A stretch of DNA of 30,024 nt. Origin: a virus. Shown here one piece after another: positions 2,498 through 17,536 of this stretch. Position 1 is the first letter of the stretch, and each line of letters opens with the position of its first letter. Position numbers and translations under genes: made by a program. The notes under the pieces were generated by a model. It saw nothing but the letters and a program-made list of their open reading frames with translations, ran no database searches and had not been told where the DNA came from. Where the stretch lies: positions 1 through 30,024 of the IMG/VR virus record IMGVR_UViG_3300032240_000307, one strand, 5' to 3'.

Positions 2498-2779
2498 AGC
2501 GGTTTTTTGGCTGGCGCAGGCCTAATTTCGTGCGCTCTAAACCTGGTCTACGTGTACACAGGGATGGAAAACCTTGCCGCAAAGGTGCTTAACCACTACC
2601 CGAAAGGATGACGATCGCTTCTAAGACCCGCGATTTGGTTATTTGAATAGAAAAAACAGGCAAAAAGAAGGGAGAAAAACCCTTAGGTTGATACGTATGT
2701 TAGCGTATATGTATTGATCCACCGTCATATTGACTGAGCTCGAGGTACCGGATGACCGCCTCTGTAACTGCTTTAACGC

Positions 2780-2984: not shown

Positions 2985-4460
2985 ATGCGTATTGAACAAT
3001 TATTAGAAAATCACAACTATTCGAGAAAGCAATTATTAAAAGAATCGTGTGATGGACTAACACAGCAACAAAGAACTATTGTAGAAAACATCTATAATGA
3101 ATTCGTGCCTTTAATCGAAGCAACTCTGACAGCTGATCAAGTAAAAGACATATTCAAGAACGTTGAGCAACAGGCTGTAGCAGGTGGAAACAATAGAACA
3201 CTAGCTGGTCTTGGAGTAGACGGAGTTAAAAAAGTCAATGACATTATTGACAAAGCAGGTAAATGGCTACAGGACACTACTCCTGTTAAGAACTTTGATG
3301 CCAAGTTCGAAAAGCTAAAGAATGACATTAATACCAAGTTTCCTGACAGTAAAATACTTGATGGAGTTTCAAACTTGGCTATTTGGGTTAAGGATAATCC
3401 TGGTAAGACCGCAGCAGTAATCGGAATCTTAACTGCTCTCGCTTCGCTCGCTGGTGGTCCTGTCGGAGGTGCAATCGCTGGTCAAGTACTAAAAGGTGCT
3501 ACAGAATTACTAAAAGGTGAAAAACTTTCAACTGCCATCGGTAAAGGTATTAAGACCGCAGCACTGGGTTATCTATCTGGTAAAGCCTTTGAAGTGTTAG
3601 GCAACTGGGTTGGCGGATTTAGAGAACAAGCAATACCGTTTGGACCTAAAGATGCAGGACTAGAAAAAGTCAACTGGGGTGCAACACAAACACTGACCGC
3701 ACCTGGAATGAGTTCTACAGAAACAATACAGGGATTTAATATCACGGTGTTTCCAGAACAGCGAGAAGCTGTGACACAGGCAATGAATGCTATTAGGGAT
3801 GGTCAAGCTGGCGGGTTTGATACATTAAAAACTATTGCTAGAGAAATAAACACACCAGAATACAAGTCATCTATCAGCAGTATTATGCAAGGTGCTCGAC
3901 AAGTTCAACTGAGCAACGACAGCTTGCTACAATGGATAAACGGTGTTTCCAAAGCAGGGCAGGCACTGAGTCAAGGTGCGGTTGCTGGTGCAAGTTCGAT
4001 GCCCGCAAAACAGGAAAGTTATTATAGTCAGACTCGTCCACTAAGTGAAGGACAGGTCTACGTTGTATTAAAGAGAATCGCGGCTGTAGAACAGTTAAAT
4101 GAAGGTCCAATGGATTGGATCAAGAAAGGTGCAGCAGCAGTAGGTAAAGGTATTGACCGTGTTGGGCAGAATATTACCAACAAAGTTACCTATGAAAAAT
4201 TACTAGCTGGATGGAAACTAGACGGAAGTCCAACAGATTCCGAAGAACTTAAAAAGTTTTTAGCCAGTATGGAAGTAGCACCGGATATAGTAAATACAGT
4301 CTATACCGATATGAAAATAGACTCAGCAGGCGCAGCAGCCGCTGAAACACCAGCAGCAGCCAGTGCGTATAAACAAGTTAAAGATCAAGTTTTGAAGTTA
4401 AATAAGAAACAACGTCAGCGTATCGCAAGCTATCTGCAAAAACAATTAGGAACCGCTTAA
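2985..4460 (+). CDS. Putative internal virion protein with hydrophobic segment
   Basis: A 491-residue protein without a recognised catalytic domain. The N-terminus MRIEQLLENH resembles those of the next two genes. A hydrophobic Ala/Gly-rich segment at about 142-168 could cross or insert into a membrane. Residues 371-395 (LNEGPMDWIKKGAAAVGKG) resemble residues 18-40 of the next protein, and the C-terminus 461-490 (AYKQVKDQVLKLNKKQRQRI...LGT) closely matches residues 195-224 of that protein, so the two share modules. Start ATG 2985 follows a late promoter box with only a weak ribosome site (GGA). Late expression, position and composition suggest a structural or injected protein; function is unproven. 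Confidence 0.6.
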   Translation: MRIEQLLENHNYSRKQLLKESCDGLTQQQRTIVENIYNEFVPLIEATLTADQVKDIFKNVEQQAVAGGNNRTLAGLGVDGVKKVNDIIDKAGKWLQDTTPVKNFDAKFEKLKNDINTKFPDSKILDGVSNLAIWVKDNPGKTAAVIGILTALASLAGGPVGGAIAGQVLKGATELLKGEKLSTAIGKGIKTAALGYLSGKAFEVLGNWVGGFREQAIPFGPKDAGLEKVNWGATQTLTAPGMSSTETIQGFNITVFPEQREAVTQAMNAIRDGQAGGFDTLKTIAREINTPEYKSSISSIMQGARQVQLSNDSLLQWINGVSKAGQALSQGAVAGASSMPAKQESYYSQTRPLSEGQVYVVLKRIAAVEQLNEGPMDWIKKGAAAVGKGIDRVGQNITNKVTYEKLLAGWKLDGSPTDSEELKKFLASMEVAPDIVNTVYTDMKIDSAGAAAAETPAAASAYKQVKDQVLKLNKKQRQRIASYLQKQLGTA

Positions 4461-4461
4461 A

Positions 4462-5565
4462 ATGAAACTAACAGAATTACTAACAGAATCAGAAATACAC
4501 GAACTACAATATCTTGAAGAAGGCCCAATCTTAAACAAGATCGGCGGCGTTGTAGGTGATGTAGCAGGCGGCGTTGCTAAAGGTGTTGGCGCAGTAGCAG
4601 GCGGTGTAGCAGGTATGGGACGTGCATTTAAGAAAGGCTTTGCATCAGGTAAAGCTAGAGTAGCAGGCGATGCAGATCCTAATCCAACTCCAGCAGATCC
4701 TCAACAGGCAGCAGGTGGCGCAGCAGCTCCAGCAGCAGGCGCTCAAGGCGGCGGTGCAGCAGCTCCAGCAGCGGGCGGCGGTGCAGCAGCACCAGCAGGT
4801 GGCGGTGCAGCAGCACCAGCAGGTGGTGGTGCCCCAGCAGGTAGCGGTGGATTTGATTCTAGCGGTAGACCAGTAGCAGCAGCACCAGCAGGTGGTGCAG
4901 CAGCTCAACCAAGTACAACAAATGTTAATGTTTCAGGAGGTAATGCTCAAGGCGGCGGTGCAGCACCTGCAGGGTCAGCTCCTACAGATGGAGCAACCGG
5001 AACTCCTCCAGCTAATCCAGCAGCAGAAAAAGCAGGTCAGACACTATACGCTCAAGTTAAATCACAAATTAAACAACTTGATAAGAAAGGCAAGCAAAGA
5101 ATTTTAGCATTGCTAAACAAATCGTTAGGAACACCAGATCCTAAAGCAGCAGCAGGTGATGCAGCAGGTGCTGATGCTGCTAACACCGCAGCTAAGCCAG
5201 CTGTAGATAAAGTTGCTGCTGGTATGAGTGCTGCAGGTGCAGCTAACACCGCAGCTCCGGCTGATAACACAACAGCGGCTGCTCCAGCTGATACAACGGC
5301 AGCACCTACTGCACCAGCTGATACAACGGCTGCTCCGGCAGAAAAACCCAAGAGAAGAAGACGTAATAGAAGAACAGCTGCAACTCCAGATCCGACAACA
5401 AGTCAAGCAGAAATCGATGCAGCTCGCGAGAGACTGCTTCCACCTGCAAACGACAGCATTATTAGAACAGGAAATAATCTTGCCGAAACACTACTGAAAG
5501 CCATTGCTGCAGAAAAACGTAGAATGGTAGCTGAAGGTAAGATCAGCATTTTTAGAACACACTAA
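4462..5565 (+). CDS. Ala/Gly/Pro-rich low-complexity virion-type protein
   Basis: A 367-residue protein starting one base after the previous stop. The N-terminus MKLTELLTESEI is followed by a Gly/Ala/Val helix-like segment (28-52). Low-complexity Ala/Gly/Pro tracts occupy about 84-190 and Ala/Thr/Pro/Asp tracts 228-293. Between them is the module YAQVKSQIKQLDKKGKQRI (about 196-214), shared with the upstream protein. A basic patch KPKRRRRNRR at 295-304 could bind DNA, and the last 60 residues return to ordinary sequence. LTES could be an LxE-type prohead-protease site. An internal head or DNA-associated protein is a reasonable guess, not a demonstrated role. Confidence 0.6.
   Translation: MKLTELLTESEIHELQYLEEGPILNKIGGVVGDVAGGVAKGVGAVAGGVAGMGRAFKKGFASGKARVAGDADPNPTPADPQQAAGGAAAPAAGAQGGGAAAPAAGGGAAAPAGGGAAAPAGGGAPAGSGGFDSSGRPVAAAPAGGAAAQPSTTNVNVSGGNAQGGGAAPAGSAPTDGATGTPPANPAAEKAGQTLYAQVKSQIKQLDKKGKQRILALLNKSLGTPDPKAAAGDAAGADAANTAAKPAVDKVAAGMSAAGAANTAAPADNTTAAAPADTTAAPTAPADTTAAPAEKPKRRRRNRRTAATPDPTTSQAEIDAARERLLPPANDSIIRTGNNLAETLLKAIAAEKRRMVAEGKISIFRTH
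4711..4911 (+). repeat. Low-complexity GCA/CCA/GGY codon tract
   Basis: This stretch encodes Ala/Gly/Pro runs with near-repeats of the unit GGTGCAGCAGCACCAGCAGG. Similar but weaker tracts recur at about 5143-5340. The repetition makes long artefactual frames on both strands. Confidence 0.85.
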
Positions 5566-5566
5566 T

Positions 5567-5941
5567 ATGAGAATTAATGAAGTAGTTGGTAAAGTAGATG
5601 CAGGAGATCCTGATCCTATGCAGACTGCCTATCAGTCTACAAAGAATCTATTCAGTCCAAGCACTTGGTTTAAAGGCAAAGAAAAACCAGTAGATACTAA
5701 TCTAGTTCAAAACGGATTAAATGATGTATTGTCTTTGCTACTAAATGGTAAAAAATTATTACCGGCAGATGTTAATAATTTAAAAACAATTTCTGCTCAG
5801 GTTCAAAATGGAACTTTAAAACCTGCCGCGAATATTAATGCTCAAGTATTGCAATCGGCTCTAGCAGCCGGTCTTCGCAATCAAGAATTAAATCCACAAC
5901 AGCAACAGGCTGTTACAGATTTTAGAAGACAATTTCATTAG
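5567..5941 (+). CDS. Hypothetical protein, third of the related-N-terminus trio
   Basis: A 124-residue protein starting one base after the preceding stop. It begins MRINEVVGKVDAGD, similar in pattern to its two upstream neighbours, and ends in a Gln-rich helix-like segment (LNPQQQQAVTDFRRQFH). The middle, residues 48-75, looks like two amphipathic helices. No family is recognised. Its TAG stop (5939-5941) overlaps the stop of the converging minus-strand frame (5938-5940), so the two transcription units meet tail to tail with no room for a terminator between the coding regions. Confidence 0.6.
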   Translation: MRINEVVGKVDAGDPDPMQTAYQSTKNLFSPSTWFKGKEKPVDTNLVQNGLNDVLSLLLNGKKLLPADVNNLKTISAQVQNGTLKPAANINAQVLQSALAAGLRNQELNPQQQQAVTDFRRQFH

Positions 5942-6168
5942 AAGAACGGCAGTCCAGATTTCTTAGTTGTTTCAAGATTTTCTTTAACTATCTCACCAAC
6001 TATTTCTCGTTCTTCGTAGCTCATATTCATAACTTCTGAATAGCTAAGACCTCGCATATACCAAGACAGCTTTAGGCAGTCTTTTTTTATAGCTCTCGCC
6101 TCTTTGTCTAACTTCTCTGATTCTCGTAAGATCTCTGGCAGAGATAAATTTAAGATCTTACGCCGAAA
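5938..6168 (-). CDS. -1 frame extension of gp26 (probable programmed frameshift product, tail-assembly type)
   Basis: On the minus strand a 76-codon frame lies downstream of and overlapping gp26, in the -1 frame. It reads FRRKILNLSLPEILRESE at the junction, then KKDCLKLSWYMRGLSYSEVM, and ends TTKKSGLPFF. There is no ATG, GTG or TTG in this frame before ATG at 6057, inside the apparent conserved WYMRG segment. At the junction the gp26 codons sit on A-AAT-TTT (6174-6168), a canonical X-XXY-YYZ slippery heptamer, followed after five bases by a 10-bp stem-loop. A -1 slip would give a fusion of about 358 residues. Alternatives are initiation at CTG 6141, which has no ribosome site, or a short product from 6057. 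Coding nature is likely; frameshifting is inferred. Confidence 0.72.
   Translation of the reverse strand, partial: FRRKILNLSLPEILRESEKLDKEARAIKKDCLKLSWYMRGLSYSEVMNMSYEEREIVGEIVKENLETTKKSGLPFF
6125..6162 (-). other. Stem-loop downstream of the slippery site
   Basis: On the minus strand CGTAAGATCT (6162-6153) pairs perfectly with AGATCTTACG (6134-6125) over an 18-base loop. The stem begins five bases after AAATTTT, within the usual spacing for frameshift-stimulating structures. The gp26 stop codon is in the loop. Confidence 0.7.
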
Positions 6169-7013
6169 AAATTTGACTGATCCATAGTGACCGGAACTTC
6201 ATAGTCCTGACCACACTCCTCGCAGTGAACATTTTGAGCTTTTAATTCAATCTGCTCTTTGATAGCGGTAAGATGAGCACTAATTTTTTCAAAAACATCT
6301 TTGCTACAGTTATCAATAAACTCTTTAATTTGCTTTTTGTCTGTACTAGCACCGTCTGGAGTTTCAATTTTAGTGATACAGTCGCAGATAATATCAACAG
6401 TTAGTTCAGTTAGTTTCACAAAGCTCTTACCAAACTGTTCAACTTTCTGTTCATCATCTAGTTTTTCATCATTAATGATGTTGAATATTTTCTGTTGCTC
6501 AAGTGTTTTAATCTGTGTCTTAGATATTTCTTTATAGGTATAAGGTCGAATGGTAACAACTAATGGGTCAACAGCTACAGTATCGTTATAGGTAAATTGA
6601 CTAAACATACCTAACCAGTTAGTTAAATTAACATCATAATCATTTTCAGTTTCACATCCAGGACACTTAGTACCAATTTCCATACTTTCACCATAGGTAG
6701 CAATACGGATAGCAATAAGAGCAAAGTCTACGTCAATGCTGGGCATTGTCCAAGGATCCTTGATTGCTGGAATACAGCTCTTAATAATTTCAACTGTACT
6801 TTGTCCGCTGAGTAATGCGTCAGGAGTTTTAAACATCAACTCGTCTTTAGCAGTCATTGCAAATACTGGATATTCATCGTTTTCGCTAACATCTAAAGTG
6901 TTAGGAGGATAAAATCTACCTTTGCTAGGTAACTGTACATAAATCTTAGGTTGTCTAAACCAATTGGCTAGAGGATTCTTTGCTATTGATTGCTGATTGT
7001 TAATTTCACTCAT
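6150..7013 (-). CDS. 26: gp26-like baseplate hub / tail assembly protein
   Basis: A 287-residue protein resembling the T4 gene 26 family (T4 base plate protein) as found in aquatic T4-like phages. The N-terminal part holds IYVQLPSKGRFYPP (24-37) and a conserved-looking DELMFKTPDALLSG segment (57-70). Two CxxC pairs, Cys117/Cys120 (CPGC) and Cys264/Cys267 (CEEC), could form a metal-binding site. T4 gp26 is needed for hub assembly but its molecular role is unclear. Start ATG 7013 is preceded by GGAGAT and a perfect late promoter. It is divergent from a tape-measure-like gene and is followed by the -1 frame extension, which suggests a chaperone-like role in tail assembly (inference). Confidence 0.75.
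   Translation of the reverse strand: MSEINNQQSIAKNPLANWFRQPKIYVQLPSKGRFYPPNTLDVSENDEYPVFAMTAKDELMFKTPDALLSGQSTVEIIKSCIPAIKDPWTMPSIDVDFALIAIRIATYGESMEIGTKCPGCETENDYDVNLTNWLGMFSQFTYNDTVAVDPLVVTIRPYTYKEISKTQIKTLEQQKIFNIINDEKLDDEQKVEQFGKSFVKLTELTVDIICDCITKIETPDGASTDKKQIKEFIDNCSKDVFEKISAHLTAIKEQIELKAQNVHCEECGQDYEVPVTMDQSNFFGVRS
6165..6174 (-). promoter_or_regulatory. Slippery sequence for -1 ribosomal frameshifting
   Basis: The minus strand reads AAATTTTTTC. In the gp26 frame this is A-AAT-TTT-TTC, so two overlapping heptamers of the X-XXY-YYZ type (AAATTTT and TTTTTTC) are in the correct phase. Gp26 ends only five codons later. Confidence 0.65.
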
Positions 7014-7081: not shown

Positions 7082-9859
7082 ATGGCACAATCAGTTTTAA
7101 TCGACATTCCCGGTATTGGACAAGTAGAAGCCAAGAATGCCGCATCTGAAGCAACGCTTCAGGAAATGTTGAAAATAATGCGCAAGTTTGATAAGTCTAC
7201 GGATGGCGGTAAGAAATCAGTAGACGGATCAGGAGGCGGTGGTGGCGGTGGCGGTGGTGGCGGTGGTGGCGCAGGCAGTGGAGGTGGTAGTGCAGGCGGT
7301 GGAACTGCGGCAAAGAGTCAATCTCTGCTAGGCAAAGCTGCATTTGCTGCCGGAATGGGCATTGCTAAACTCGATACTGCTGCCAAAATGGTGCTTGGCG
7401 GATTTAGAGGATTAGCCGAAGGATCTGTAGACACTGTTAATAAATTCGCACAAGTAGGTGACAGTCTTACTGCCGCAGCAGGTGTATTTCAAAATATACC
7501 TATTGTGGGTAAAATGTTTGGTGCAGTTGCACAGGCAGTTACTAGTGTAACAGATGCATATCAACAGGCAGCACAGTCAGGTGCAACCTTTAGCGGAAGT
7601 GTAAATCAATTTTCTGCAGCAGCAACTAGTGCTGGTATGACAATGGAAAAGTTTGGCGCTCTAATCTCGCAAAACGCATTTGGTATGGGCGCATTTGGTA
7701 CTACCGCAGAAGATGGTGCTAAAAACTTTGCTAAGACTTCTAAAGCATTAAGAGCAAGTGCAAGCGATCTATATGCTCTAGGATATTCTACTCAGCAGAT
7801 TAATGAAGGTCTTGCCAAATACGGATCATTGATGCGTAGTCAAGGTCAACAGGGCAAGATGACTAACGATCAACTGGCCGCAGGTGCTAAAAACTATATG
7901 AAAGAACTCGACCTGTTGGCAAAAGCAACCGGTGAAGATCGTAAAACAATCGAAGCACGACAAGCAGCATTAGCACTCGATGCACAGTTCCAAGCATCGA
8001 TGGCAGGATTAGGACCTAAAGTTCGTGATTCATTTATGGCAGTTGCTACAGGTGTACCAAAAGAGCTTGAAGGTTTTACCAAAGACATTATGGCCAACGG
8101 TGTTGCCACAACAGAAGAAAACCAAAAACTAATGGCAATGATGCCACAGTCTGCTGCGATGTTAGCAGAGTTTAATGCTAAGACACAACGCGGTGAAGCA
8201 ATTACTCAAGAAGAAAGAAATAGATTAAACAATCTAATGAAAAAAGAAGGTACTGAGCAATTAAAAAATATTAAACAGGCAGGTGCTGCATCAGCAGAAC
8301 TTGGCGGAACAGTTAAGGCTATGGCAGCAGCTTCAACTATTAATGAAGATGCTTTAAAAACAGGTGCAGCCCAACAGGACGAAGCTGCCAAGAAAACTGA
8401 TGCAATGAACGCAGCAGTTGAAAAAAGTAAGCAAACATTAGCAGAATTTAGTAACGGATTTCAAATGGCATTGGCTAACAGCGGTATGCTTGATACACTA
8501 ATGGAAGCATTTAAATTTACAGCTAACTTTGTGATGCAATATGTTGTTCCGTTGTTTAGTGTATTATCATCATCTATTGGTCTTATTGTTGGCTCGTTAA
8601 TAGATAGTTTTGGTCCTGCTGTTAACGGAGTTGGTGGATTTTTTAATGATGTATTGCTTCCTGCTATTGGAAAATTTACTTCATTCTTAGTTGTTGATCT
8701 TATTCCAGCTGTAGCACAGACGTTTAATGATTTAAAACCAGTACTAGAGTTTTTTGGTGGAGTTATAATGTCTGTTGCAGGTTTTATCACTGATAATCTA
8801 ACTGCGGTACTTATTGTTGTTGGAGGAGTGTTAGCCGGATATTATGCAGTAACTGCCGCACTTACTCTTATTTCTTGGGCTGAGGCAGCTTCAAAAAATG
8901 CGTTAGTTATAGCTACATTACCTGTTATTGCTGGATTTGTATCCGCCGCTGCCGGAGCTATTGCTGCAGGATTAGCATTCCTAGGAATCACGTGGCCAAT
9001 TGGTCTAGCTATTGCCGCAGTAGTAGGACTGATAGCTATATTCAAACATTTTGGTGGAGATATAACAGTTGTTAAAGATGGTTTACTAGTGATGTGGGAT
9101 ACAATGAAAATATTTTTTAAAAGTCTTTGGTTGGGATTTTTAAAACTTTTAGATTTTTTACCAGGTACTGGTGACAAATTTAAAGCACAGATCGAAGAAA
9201 CCGAAAAATCTATTGCTGAGGACAAGAAAGATAGAGAAAACAAAGCCAACGGTATAGCAGAACGTATGGCTAATAATAGAGAAGCAGCTAAGACACAAGA
9301 AGAAAAAGATAAAGAAGCAAAACGTGCAGCAGTCGAAGCTAAACTTGATAAAGCATCACACAGTGCTAAAGCTACTGGTATTAAACAACAAGAAGACCTT
9401 AATGCAAAAGATAAAGCAGTCAAAGATGCATCTGTTAGCAATATGGATTACAATGCTAATGGTGCTGATCTATTAAAACAATTTGCGACAACTAATAAAA
9501 GTGAACTAATTCCAAAAGATCCTGCTGAGATTAAGAAAGCCGCTGAGATTAAAGATCAAAAACCAGCGGCTACTACTGCTGCAGATACTGTTAAGAAAAC
9601 TATTGAAGCAGACGGTGAGAAAAAGACAGCAGATGCTAAAAAGGCCGAAGACGAGAAAAAAGCAGCAGAAGATAAGAAAACAGCAGAATCCAAAGACGGA
9701 ACTAAGAAACCGACAACTCAAGAAACAGCGGAGTCCTTATTAGCGGAGTTAAATACTAAGATGGCCCAGTTACTCAAATTCTCAGCGCAGACAACTACTA
9801 ACACGTATGAAACGTTTAATGCAGCCAAAGGGTTACAAGGCAACTTGTTTAAAAGATAA
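7082..9859 (+). CDS. Probable tail tape-measure / membrane-interacting structural protein
   Basis: A 925-residue protein. Residues 1-40 include IDIPGIGQVEAKNA, then a run of 13 glycines (51-63) and a Gly/Ser linker to about 75. Residues 80-460 are Ala-rich and mainly helical. Several strongly hydrophobic segments follow at roughly 483-507, 562-600 and 607-655, and then a charged Lys/Glu/Asp/Ala-rich helical region, 690-890. Long helical tracts plus clustered membrane segments and a location next to gp26-like genes fit a tape-measure protein that spans the tail tube and may enter the host membrane. T4's own tape measure, gp29, is shorter (about 590 residues). No lysozyme-type motif was recognised. 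The role is inferred from composition and context. Confidence 0.6.
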   Translation: MAQSVLIDIPGIGQVEAKNAASEATLQEMLKIMRKFDKSTDGGKKSVDGSGGGGGGGGGGGGGAGSGGGSAGGGTAAKSQSLLGKAAFAAGMGIAKLDTAAKMVLGGFRGLAEGSVDTVNKFAQVGDSLTAAAGVFQNIPIVGKMFGAVAQAVTSVTDAYQQAAQSGATFSGSVNQFSAAATSAGMTMEKFGALISQNAFGMGAFGTTAEDGAKNFAKTSKALRASASDLYALGYSTQQINEGLAKYGSLMRSQGQQGKMTNDQLAAGAKNYMKELDLLAKATGEDRKTIEARQAALALDAQFQASMAGLGPKVRDSFMAVATGVPKELEGFTKDIMANGVATTEENQKLMAMMPQSAAMLAEFNAKTQRGEAITQEERNRLNNLMKKEGTEQLKNIKQAGAASAELGGTVKAMAAASTINEDALKTGAAQQDEAAKKTDAMNAAVEKSKQTLAEFSNGFQMALANSGMLDTLMEAFKFTANFVMQYVVPLFSVLSSSIGLIVGSLIDSFGPAVNGVGGFFNDVLLPAIGKFTSFLVVDLIPAVAQTFNDLKPVLEFFGGVIMSVAGFITDNLTAVLIVVGGVLAGYYAVTAALTLISWAEAASKNALVIATLPVIAGFVSAAAGAIAAGLAFLGITWPIGLAIAAVVGLIAIFKHFGGDITVVKDGLLVMWDTMKIFFKSLWLGFLKLLDFLPGTGDKFKAQIEETEKSIAEDKKDRENKANGIAERMANNREAAKTQEEKDKEAKRAAVEAKLDKASHSAKATGIKQQEDLNAKDKAVKDASVSNMDYNANGADLLKQFATTNKSELIPKDPAEIKKAAEIKDQKPAATTAADTVKKTIEADGEKKTADAKKAEDEKKAAEDKKTAESKDGTKKPTTQETAESLLAELNTKMAQLLKFSAQTTTNTYETFNAAKGLQGNLFKR
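7232..7270 (+). repeat. Thirteen consecutive glycine codons
   Basis: A run of GGN codons, mainly GGT and GGC, encodes Gly51-Gly63 of the tape-measure-like protein. It is a likely flexible linker and a plausible site of replication slippage. Confidence 0.9.
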
Positions 9860-16760: not shown

Positions 16761-16834
16761 AAGTATCTAGAGCGTACTCGTCAGAGTAACTTATGCGGAA
16801 ATCCAACCGCGTAGACCTAGAACGTCAAATTATC

Positions 16835-16840
16835 AAGGAG
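16835..16840 (+). promoter_or_regulatory. Ribosome binding site deciding the 16847 start
   Basis: AAGGAG six bases before ATG 16847 shows that translation begins there rather than at the in-frame ATG at 16793, which has no such site. Confidence 0.8.
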
Positions 16841-16846
16841 AAAAAA

Positions 16847-17536
16847 ATGGGACGTCCTTTAAAGAAAGATATTAATGGTAAGGAAGTATTAGGCTTACCG
16901 GGCTTGTCAACAAACACACTAACGGGTATTCGTGTAAGCGGCTATTTCGGTGGTGCATTATCGACAGCTTATGTACTAATCAAACAACGTGGTGCTCAAT
17001 CATTCGTTGTGGCAAAAATTGAAAGCTTCACAGCAAACTCAACCAGCGGTAGCGCAATCCTCACTAATATGGGCGATCAAGATGAAGTTACAGTTGGTGA
17101 CGAACTATCAGGTGCTGGTATTCCATCTGGTGCTAGAGTACAGTCTATCGATAGCGCAACACAGATCACAATGACAGCAAATGCTACAGCAACAGCAACT
17201 GGTATTACAGTTAGTCACTGGGGTGCTTTTAAAATTGGCACAACAGTTAACACAACACCAAATGTAAACGGTGAAATCCTAATCCAAGGTTATGACACTT
17301 CTGCAGGTGGCCAAGGTGCACAGGTTACAGCTAACCTAGTACCTATCCGTAAACTATCACGTAGACTTGCTTATGGTTTTCCGTCAAGCCCAGTTCTAAA
17401 TGCAGGCAGCAGCTATCAGAACAGTGAAGATTCAAATGCATCTACTAACCACGATGAAAAAACATACAGCTGGTACCTCACTGATGACTCATCAATGGAC
17501 TATATCGTATTGACACCAGTTACAGCAAAGATGTAA
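16847..17536 (+). CDS. Putative virion structural protein with inserted beta module
   Basis: A 229-residue protein, MGRPLKKDINGKEVLG at the start. The outer parts (1-57 and 125-229) look like one small structural protein, with AYVLIKQRGAQSFVVAK before and GAFKIGTTVN and IRKLSRRLAYGF after. Residues 58-124 appear to be an inserted beta module with DELSGAGIPSGARVQSID and TQITMTANAT, a pattern of small Ig-like or bacterial surface beta repeats. A comparable segment occurs in the giant protein at 24183. It follows a late promoter and opens the fibre block. Virion location is inferred from context; function is unknown. Confidence 0.6.
   Translation: MGRPLKKDINGKEVLGLPGLSTNTLTGIRVSGYFGGALSTAYVLIKQRGAQSFVVAKIESFTANSTSGSAILTNMGDQDEVTVGDELSGAGIPSGARVQSIDSATQITMTANATATATGITVSHWGAFKIGTTVNTTPNVNGEILIQGYDTSAGGQGAQVTANLVPIRKLSRRLAYGFPSSPVLNAGSSYQNSEDSNASTNHDEKTYSWYLTDDSSMDYIVLTPVTAKM

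Follow-up and report, generated by a model that had tools for sequence, protein, structure and literature searches.

Tail-assembly chaperones made by frameshift are known from phages lambda (G/GT), P2 (E/E') and Mu. For lambda, PMC5009743 describes a short protein, gpG, and a minor -1 fusion, gpGT, encoded near the tape-measure gene. The short form binds the tape measure, and recruitment of the tail tube falls to the long form; the paper names T4 as the exception to this conserved tail-gene frameshift. In PMC3004832, T4 gp26 and gp51 are described as hub assembly chaperones; gp51 is absent from the finished particle, and genetic evidence is cited that places gp26 itself in the hub. In this, T4 gp26 would differ from lambda gpG.

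For some T4-like phages, the PRFect paper (PMC10885494), citing Vladimirov et al. 2022, mentions a short gene plus a longer fusion gene instead of a frameshift. As represented in PMC10885494 and PMC12846349, the work of Vladimirov, Gautam and Davidson in 2022 identified tail-assembly chaperones of T4-like phages, reportedly with poly-T signals; an earlier note on the DNA studied here, knowing of no described frameshift for T4 gp26, had suggested a hidden T4-group counterpart of lambda G/GT, an idea that is thus not new. PMC12846349 also describes a GTTTTT -1 frameshift in chaperone genes of Vandenendeviridae and Andersonviridae.

The locus described here lies in a 30,024-base IMG/VR virus record, the whole of which we call the window. 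As in lambda, it appears to encode a short protein and a minor -1 fusion near a tape-measure-like gene, which in the window is a prediction from sequence. It differs from lambda in that the protein family is PF12322 (T4 gp26-type), the tape-measure-like gene is divergent rather than downstream, the predicted slip site is U_UUU_UUC, and a hairpin showing compensatory changes lies beyond it. In Vandenendeviridae and Andersonviridae, as is predicted for the window, the chaperone gene has a poly-T -1 shift near where it ends, at the 3' side, and annotations give the C-terminal extension as a hypothetical protein of its own; these are other families than that of the window phage, and the passages on them do not mention a hairpin. 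Cyanophages carry gp26 and a small gp51 (baseplate hub assembly catalyst, phrog_634) with U_UUU_UUC and a -1 extension in the same place as in the window, but they are often annotated as two genes, their extension sequence differs, and so does their hairpin, which is spaced 5 nt from the slip site. T4 gp26 and gp51 belong to the same protein family as the window protein, and T4 gp51 resembles an in-frame long form; in T4 two separate genes are present and gp26 ends without a slip site, whereas the window and its relatives have one gene and a predicted shift.

A gp26 chaperone frameshift is therefore of a kind already known, and the window is a well-supported new example. As far as the literature searched goes, what is new is the uncultured clade, compensatory changes in each of two hairpins, and a contrast between one and two genes across records, any of which may be in Vladimirov et al. 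2022. No description of a gp26 frameshift hairpin was found in the literature searched, and it too may be in that paper.

The gp26 cassette of the window

The window phage is a large uncultured (jumbo) phage that, judging from its sequence, very probably makes a long second form of gp26. The features of the cassette are as follows.

6150..7013, minus strand: gp26-type gene, 287 aa, by homology the short tail-assembly chaperone form (PF12322, phrog_150)
6165..6171, minus strand: putative slippery heptamer U_UUU_UUC in gp26 phase (AAT TTT TTC), read from the sequence
6174-6168, minus strand: overlapping heptamer A_AAU_UUU in gp26 phase, read from the sequence
6125..6162, minus strand: predicted stem-loop overlapping the gp26 stop, 11 bp including one G-U (arms 6162-6152 / 6135-6125; RNAfold -13 kcal/mol)
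5938..6171, minus strand: predicted -1 frame extension (FFRRKILNLSLPEIL...WYMRG...SGLPFF), with TAA at 5940-5938 (sequence, alignment A5, AlphaFold2)
5567..5941, plus strand: convergent ORF, the boundary of the frameshift cassette, its stop meeting the extension stop
7082..9859, plus strand: tape-measure-like gene, 925 aa, divergent from gp26 (phrog_58 E 0.002; hydrophobic stretches)

In profile searches the gp26 product matched PF12322 above the cut-off (E 2e-19, 70.6 bits; cut-off 24.5) and phrog_150 (baseplate hub) with an E value of 3.6e-24. At the junction, TCA AAT TTT TTC GGC, both A_AAU_UUU and U_UUU_UUC are in phase. Counted back from the last base of the gp26 stop codon, the -1 frame is open for 49 nt, and it stays open as far as the TAA at 5940-5938; its first ATG, GTG or TTG is the ATG within WYMRG, 92 nt past the gp26 stop. 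The earlier note's statement that this frame overlaps gp26 and has no start-like codon before WYMRG can thus be read directly from the window. It had also proposed a 76-codon extension and a fusion of about 358 residues: a slip at U_UUU_UUC would indeed give, in silico, a long form of 358 aa, but the shift would add 75 residues after codon 283. If the extension were absent, a gap of about 208 nt would separate gp26 from the convergent ORF.

The putative slip site and the downstream hairpins

An IMG/VR scan yielded 370 stretches encoding relatives, of which the best 80 (60-100% identity), together with the window, gave 81 loci of the window clade, or 72 after removal of identical ones. Cyanophage-type loci were treated in the same way (the best 80 among the matches listed, 78 distinct). 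At the gp26 slip position, T TTT TTC was present in all 72 distinct window-clade loci, including the window, from these best 80 of 370, and in 77 of the 78 distinct cyanophage-type loci from the best 80 among the matches listed. The single exception, a cyanophage-type contig (L150, ~3700), has two bases fewer at the slip site, creating an in-frame gp26-extension fusion that is natural or possibly an assembly error.

As a control we used other Phe-Phe pairs from ORFs of the same loci. T_TTT_TTC encoded 19 of 154 such pairs in the window clade, compared with 71 of 71 at the site (the window being omitted), and 17 of 346 in the cyanophage-type loci, compared with 77 of 77. Elsewhere in gp26 of the window-clade loci, Phe was encoded by TTT 708 times and by TTC 144 times. 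Conservation of the putative slip site is far beyond chance.

The pattern extends to annotated phages. In a set of 14, to which T4, SP-15 and LR756511 do not belong, the open -1 extension was present in every member, with T TTT TTC in 12 and T TTT TTT in two (XacN1 and RAS14). Among seven further phages, VH7D and BUCT-ZZ01 had T TTT TTC and an open extension, phiM12, HTVC008M and Melnitz-2 had T TTT TTT and an open extension, and RHph_I34 and AF3, without Phe-Phe, had T TTT TTG at the slip position. Three genome-bin contigs (L185-L187) also carried T TTT TTC. The earlier note had named A-AAT-TTT as the slip site; this heptamer is in gp26 phase, but one window-clade locus (L053) has lost A_AAU_UUU while keeping U_UUU_UUC. 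From these alignments the predicted core slip site is the overlapping U_UUU_UUC (6171-6165), conserved beyond the window clade, rather than A_AAU_UUU. In Bacillus phage SP-15 (L014, ~3690-3930), the apparent extension of the gp26-type gene is reached from GAA TTT TTT CAC by a +1 (or -2) rather than a -1 change of frame.

The perfect 10-bp stem five bases after A-AAT-TTT that the earlier note described is present (6162-6153 / 6134-6125), and RNAfold adds one G-U pair to it. Folding z-scores for the window were weak, at -2.5 (47 nt), -1.2 (88 nt) and -0.25 (70 nt); single-sequence folding is weak evidence for the hairpin, and we did not rely on it. The stronger evidence is comparative: a slip site kept in all 72 distinct clade loci, and compensatory changes in the stem. 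Rfam at gathering thresholds returned no family at the frameshift junction.

Alignment A1 contained the 59 distinct junctions left after identical ones were removed from the 72 loci. Standard pairs occupied 91.5% of the cells of the 10-pair helix, compared with 87.0% in shuffles, and when the helix was slid out of register pairing fell to 33-52% of cells. Changes on both sides of a pair occurred in 31 cells, compared with 9.2 in shuffles, and none of 500 shuffles reached this value. The number of pairs with both-side changes (four; 33 of 500 shuffles as high) and the number of pair types (nine; 296 of 500 as high) were not exceptional, and RNAalifold retained only four pairs. The column pair 27-54 (GC in 39, AU in 19 and GU in one of the 59) had the highest mutual information among the variable column pairs tested, both columns being third positions of the -1 frame. 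On the gp26 tree it changed about eight times; in four independent comparisons on well-supported branches (seven including weak ones) the two sides nearly always co-varied (sign test p 0.125). At pair 24-57 the partner mostly did not follow (0.5 of two changes). The compensatory events on the window-clade tree are too few for significance.

Stimulator hairpins usually lie 5-9 nt downstream of the slip site. In the window only 2 nt lie between U_UUU_UUC and the hairpin, and 3 nt when the helix is taken to begin at column 23, as it does in most clade members; both values are closer than usual. From A_AAU_UUU the spacing is 5-6 nt, which is normal.

The cyanophage-type hairpin, of 11 bp, differs from that of the window clade and starts 5 nt after the U run, a normal spacing. 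After rows that were too short, contained N or were identical had been dropped, 70 of 77 rows remained; 51 of these formed at least nine of the 11 pairs, and 19 formed seven or fewer. Pair 25-39 was UA in 28, AU in 14 and GC in 14 of the 70 rows, and both-side changes occupied 44 cells, compared with 16.0 in shuffles. Pairs with both-side changes (329 of 500 shuffles as high) and pair types (276 of 500) were again not exceptional, and none of the tree tests for compensatory change in this group reached 0.05. Folding downstream of the site in single phages (L186 being left out) gave z-scores of -3.5 for PA5oct, -2.7 for Atu_ph07, 0.1 for GAP32 and 1.6 for Munch; several jumbo phages, Munch and GAP32 among them, have no strong hairpin. 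Overall, related phages keep the predicted slip site, many with a predicted RNA hairpin after it.

Proposed translation of the extension

A -1 programmed frameshift that fuses gp26 to the extension, giving a long form of 358 aa, is the reading we prefer, with a probability of about 0.92. It was the central proposal of the earlier note, and it is strongly supported by conservation, which extends to the slip site, to the hairpin and to the -1 frame that stays open. The extension reaches a stop in 69 of the 72 window-clade loci, 77 or 78 residues from the slip; in the other three (L050, L060 and L090) it runs off the end of the locus before any stop is met. In the 30 other rows of alignment A5 its identity to the window is 41-94%.

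The two frames were compared over the stretch from slip site to gp26 stop in the 46 of 59 clade junctions with the commonest gp26 tail length, other lengths being omitted. The first -1 codon after Phe-Phe specified Arg in all 46, using four different codons, while the overlapping gp26 codon varied among G, D, A, V and E. Residues also varied at the second -1 codon (S in 23, R in 19 and four others), and codons three to five were K in 40, I in 43 and L in 46 of the 46. In the gp26 frame, the commonest residues over the overlap were V (32), R (32) and S (all 46). By and large the -1 frame is better conserved than the gp26 frame, though not at every codon.

The extension might instead be a separate small gene, with its own start or translated by termination and restart after gp26 (translational coupling). 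A start-like codon does precede WYMRG in many window-clade loci (ATG in 37 and GTG in 12 of the 72), some annotated phages, such as Phosso and 121Q, have a start that overlaps the gp26 stop, and gp51 of P-SSM4 is annotated as a gene of its own. However, there is no ATG, GTG or TTG before WYMRG in 15 of the 72 loci, and PA5oct has none across all 75 codons of its extension. Of the 14 annotated phages, nine have their first such codon at the 15th position or later, or have none, and five have it within the first seven codons. Candidate starts occupy varying positions, and a Shine-Dalgarno-like motif lies ahead of any of them in only 11 of 70 window-clade rows (two of the 72 rows, without a W[YF]MRG match, were omitted). 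These data argue against an independently started small gene, perhaps not in every lineage. A separate gene would also be at odds with the invariant Arg after Phe-Phe, which lies upstream of the gp26 stop, and would leave the invariant U_UUU_UUC and the downstream hairpin unexplained; we consider it improbable.

There are two further rival explanations. RNA polymerase might slip there and add a base, shifting the frame in the transcript, and the six-T run is indeed kept in the 72 clade loci, with longer runs in XacN1, RAS14, phiM12, HTVC008M and Melnitz-2. Six T's are short for efficient polymerase slippage, however, and ribosomal slippage agrees better with the T TTT TTC phase, with the C that ends the run and with the hairpin beyond it, making a transcriptional shift very improbable. 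Alternatively, Phe-Phe might be kept for protein reasons, the open -1 frame being a decayed or mis-assembled gp26 tail. This would suit the invariance of Phe-Phe in 13 diverse aligned gp26 proteins and the in-frame fusion of L150, with its two bases fewer, but not the rarity of T TTT TTC at other Phe-Phe pairs, the conservation of the extension itself or the recurrence of the -1 arrangement across independently sequenced phages; we give it hardly any credence.

Under the programmed frameshift, one mRNA would yield two proteins. Most ribosomes would stop at the gp26 stop codon and release the 287-residue short form, while a minority would stall at the hairpin just past the U run. There, two tRNA-Phe molecules, one in the P site on UUU and the other in the A site on UUC, would slip back by one base on U_UUU_UUC, and reading would continue in the -1 frame to give the 358-residue long form, with a helical domain added. 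The short form would be a T4 gp26-type tail-assembly chaperone and the long form the counterpart of T4 gp51, the pair acting like lambda gpG/gpGT on the tape-measure protein encoded next door. We infer the slippage, its rate and the tRNA details.

Long forms, T4 and the tape-measure neighbour

Long forms built in silico were compared one against one by profile, using for the window clade the 69 of 72 rows with a complete extension. Those of the window clade and the jumbo phages matched over their full length (E 2e-83), and the matches between jumbo phages and cyanophages (E 2.4e-14) and between cyanophages and T4 gp51 (E 1.3e-6) both ran through the extension. The match of the window clade to the cyanophages (E 2e-6) covered the gp26 part only, and that of the jumbo set, or of window and jumbo sets combined, to T4 gp51 (E ~0.002) was confined to a short part of gp26; jumbo-set gp26 on its own likewise matched T4 gp51 over a short stretch only. 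When extensions alone were compared, E values were 5e-22 for window and jumbo, 0.005 (weak) for jumbo and cyanophage, and 1.5e-5 for cyanophage and T4 gp51. Window and jumbo extensions combined gave an E value of 0.03 with T4 gp51, and in profile comparison the window-type extension alone did not match the cyanophage extension (E 0.15) or T4 gp51 (E 0.31). The window extension is therefore linked to T4 gp51 only via the jumbo and cyanophage long forms. Phrog_150 follows T4 gp51 until close to the C terminus, and gp51 of both T4 and P-SSM4 is matched by phrog_634 (hub assembly catalyst). These sequence comparisons support a single chain of homologues that runs from the window clade through the jumbo phages and cyanophages, each represented by its predicted long form, to T4 gp51; they support the earlier note's suggestion of a T4-group counterpart of lambda G/GT.

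AlphaFold2 modeled the extension as a confident all-helical domain (mean pLDDT 91.5) and gp26 with a mean pLDDT of 80.6. In Foldseek, neither model matched a solved fold with an E value of 0.001 or below, and HMM searches of PDB sequences with gp26 or the extension gave nothing useful. The best match of the extension in BFVD (E 0.0075) was a small uncharacterised protein from an uncultured phage. The cyanophage-type extension was present in 560 phage records; in the 60 of these that were listed, names for the extension were mixed, or only gp26 was named. Annotations thus often miss or split the long protein.

PF12322 genes numbered two in T4, the only two-gene genome in this count, and one in 16 of 17 other records. 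SCTP-2 had none at threshold, despite which its gp26 was found by tblastn. The one-gene records include two contigs of the window clade, of 280 kb (G001) and 186 kb (G002); the window itself is only 30 kb. Unlike T4, Vibrio phage VH7D (L188), a member of the Straboviridae, has one PF12322 gene, in which T TTT TTC is followed by an extension in the -1 frame. T4 gp26 ends in GAG TTC TTT GAG and its -1 frame stops soon after, so that there is no slip site and no extension; T4 seems to have replaced the frameshift by gene duplication. We consider it somewhat more probable than its opposite that a U_UUU_UUC-type shift in gp26 is ancestral to the T4 supergroup (jumbo phages, cyanophages, pelagiphages, rhizobial phages and even a Straboviridae member), that hairpins arose anew in separate lineages, and that T4 escaped by the duplication that gave gp26 and gp51. 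The data suggest that T4 relatives do frameshift and that T4 duplicated its gp26 gene instead. For gp26 and gp51 of T4, hub chaperones that are poorly understood, this would provide a concrete role open to testing.

By analogy with lambda, a chaperone role for the short and long forms of gp26 is likely, and the long form most likely works as lambda G/GT tail-assembly chaperones do; we infer the same division of labour between short and long forms in the window. The earlier note had pointed to a tape-measure-like neighbour. By profile (phrog_58, E 0.002) the tape-measure assignment of the 7082-9859 gene is weak, but a relative of this gene is divergent to gp26 in 79 of the 80 clade loci (the best 80 of 370), the other locus (L042) beginning 127 nt before gp26. 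The product is hydrophobic in its central region, in stretches that fall within residues 484 to 661. A single gene lies between the extension and an annotated tape measure in phiM12 and HTVC008M.

Three further features were noted in the window. An ORF at 4462-5565 (plus strand), with no match in Pfam or PHROG at E 0.1, has a long middle part of low complexity, rich in Ala, Gly and Pro. Rfam placed RF01718 (Polynucleobacter-1 RNA, an sRNA family) within this virus record at 2509-2644 (plus strand; 101 bits), and RF02980 (freshwater-2 cis-regulatory RNA) at 16774-16849 (plus strand; 55 bits), where it overlaps the start of the ORF at 16793-17536.
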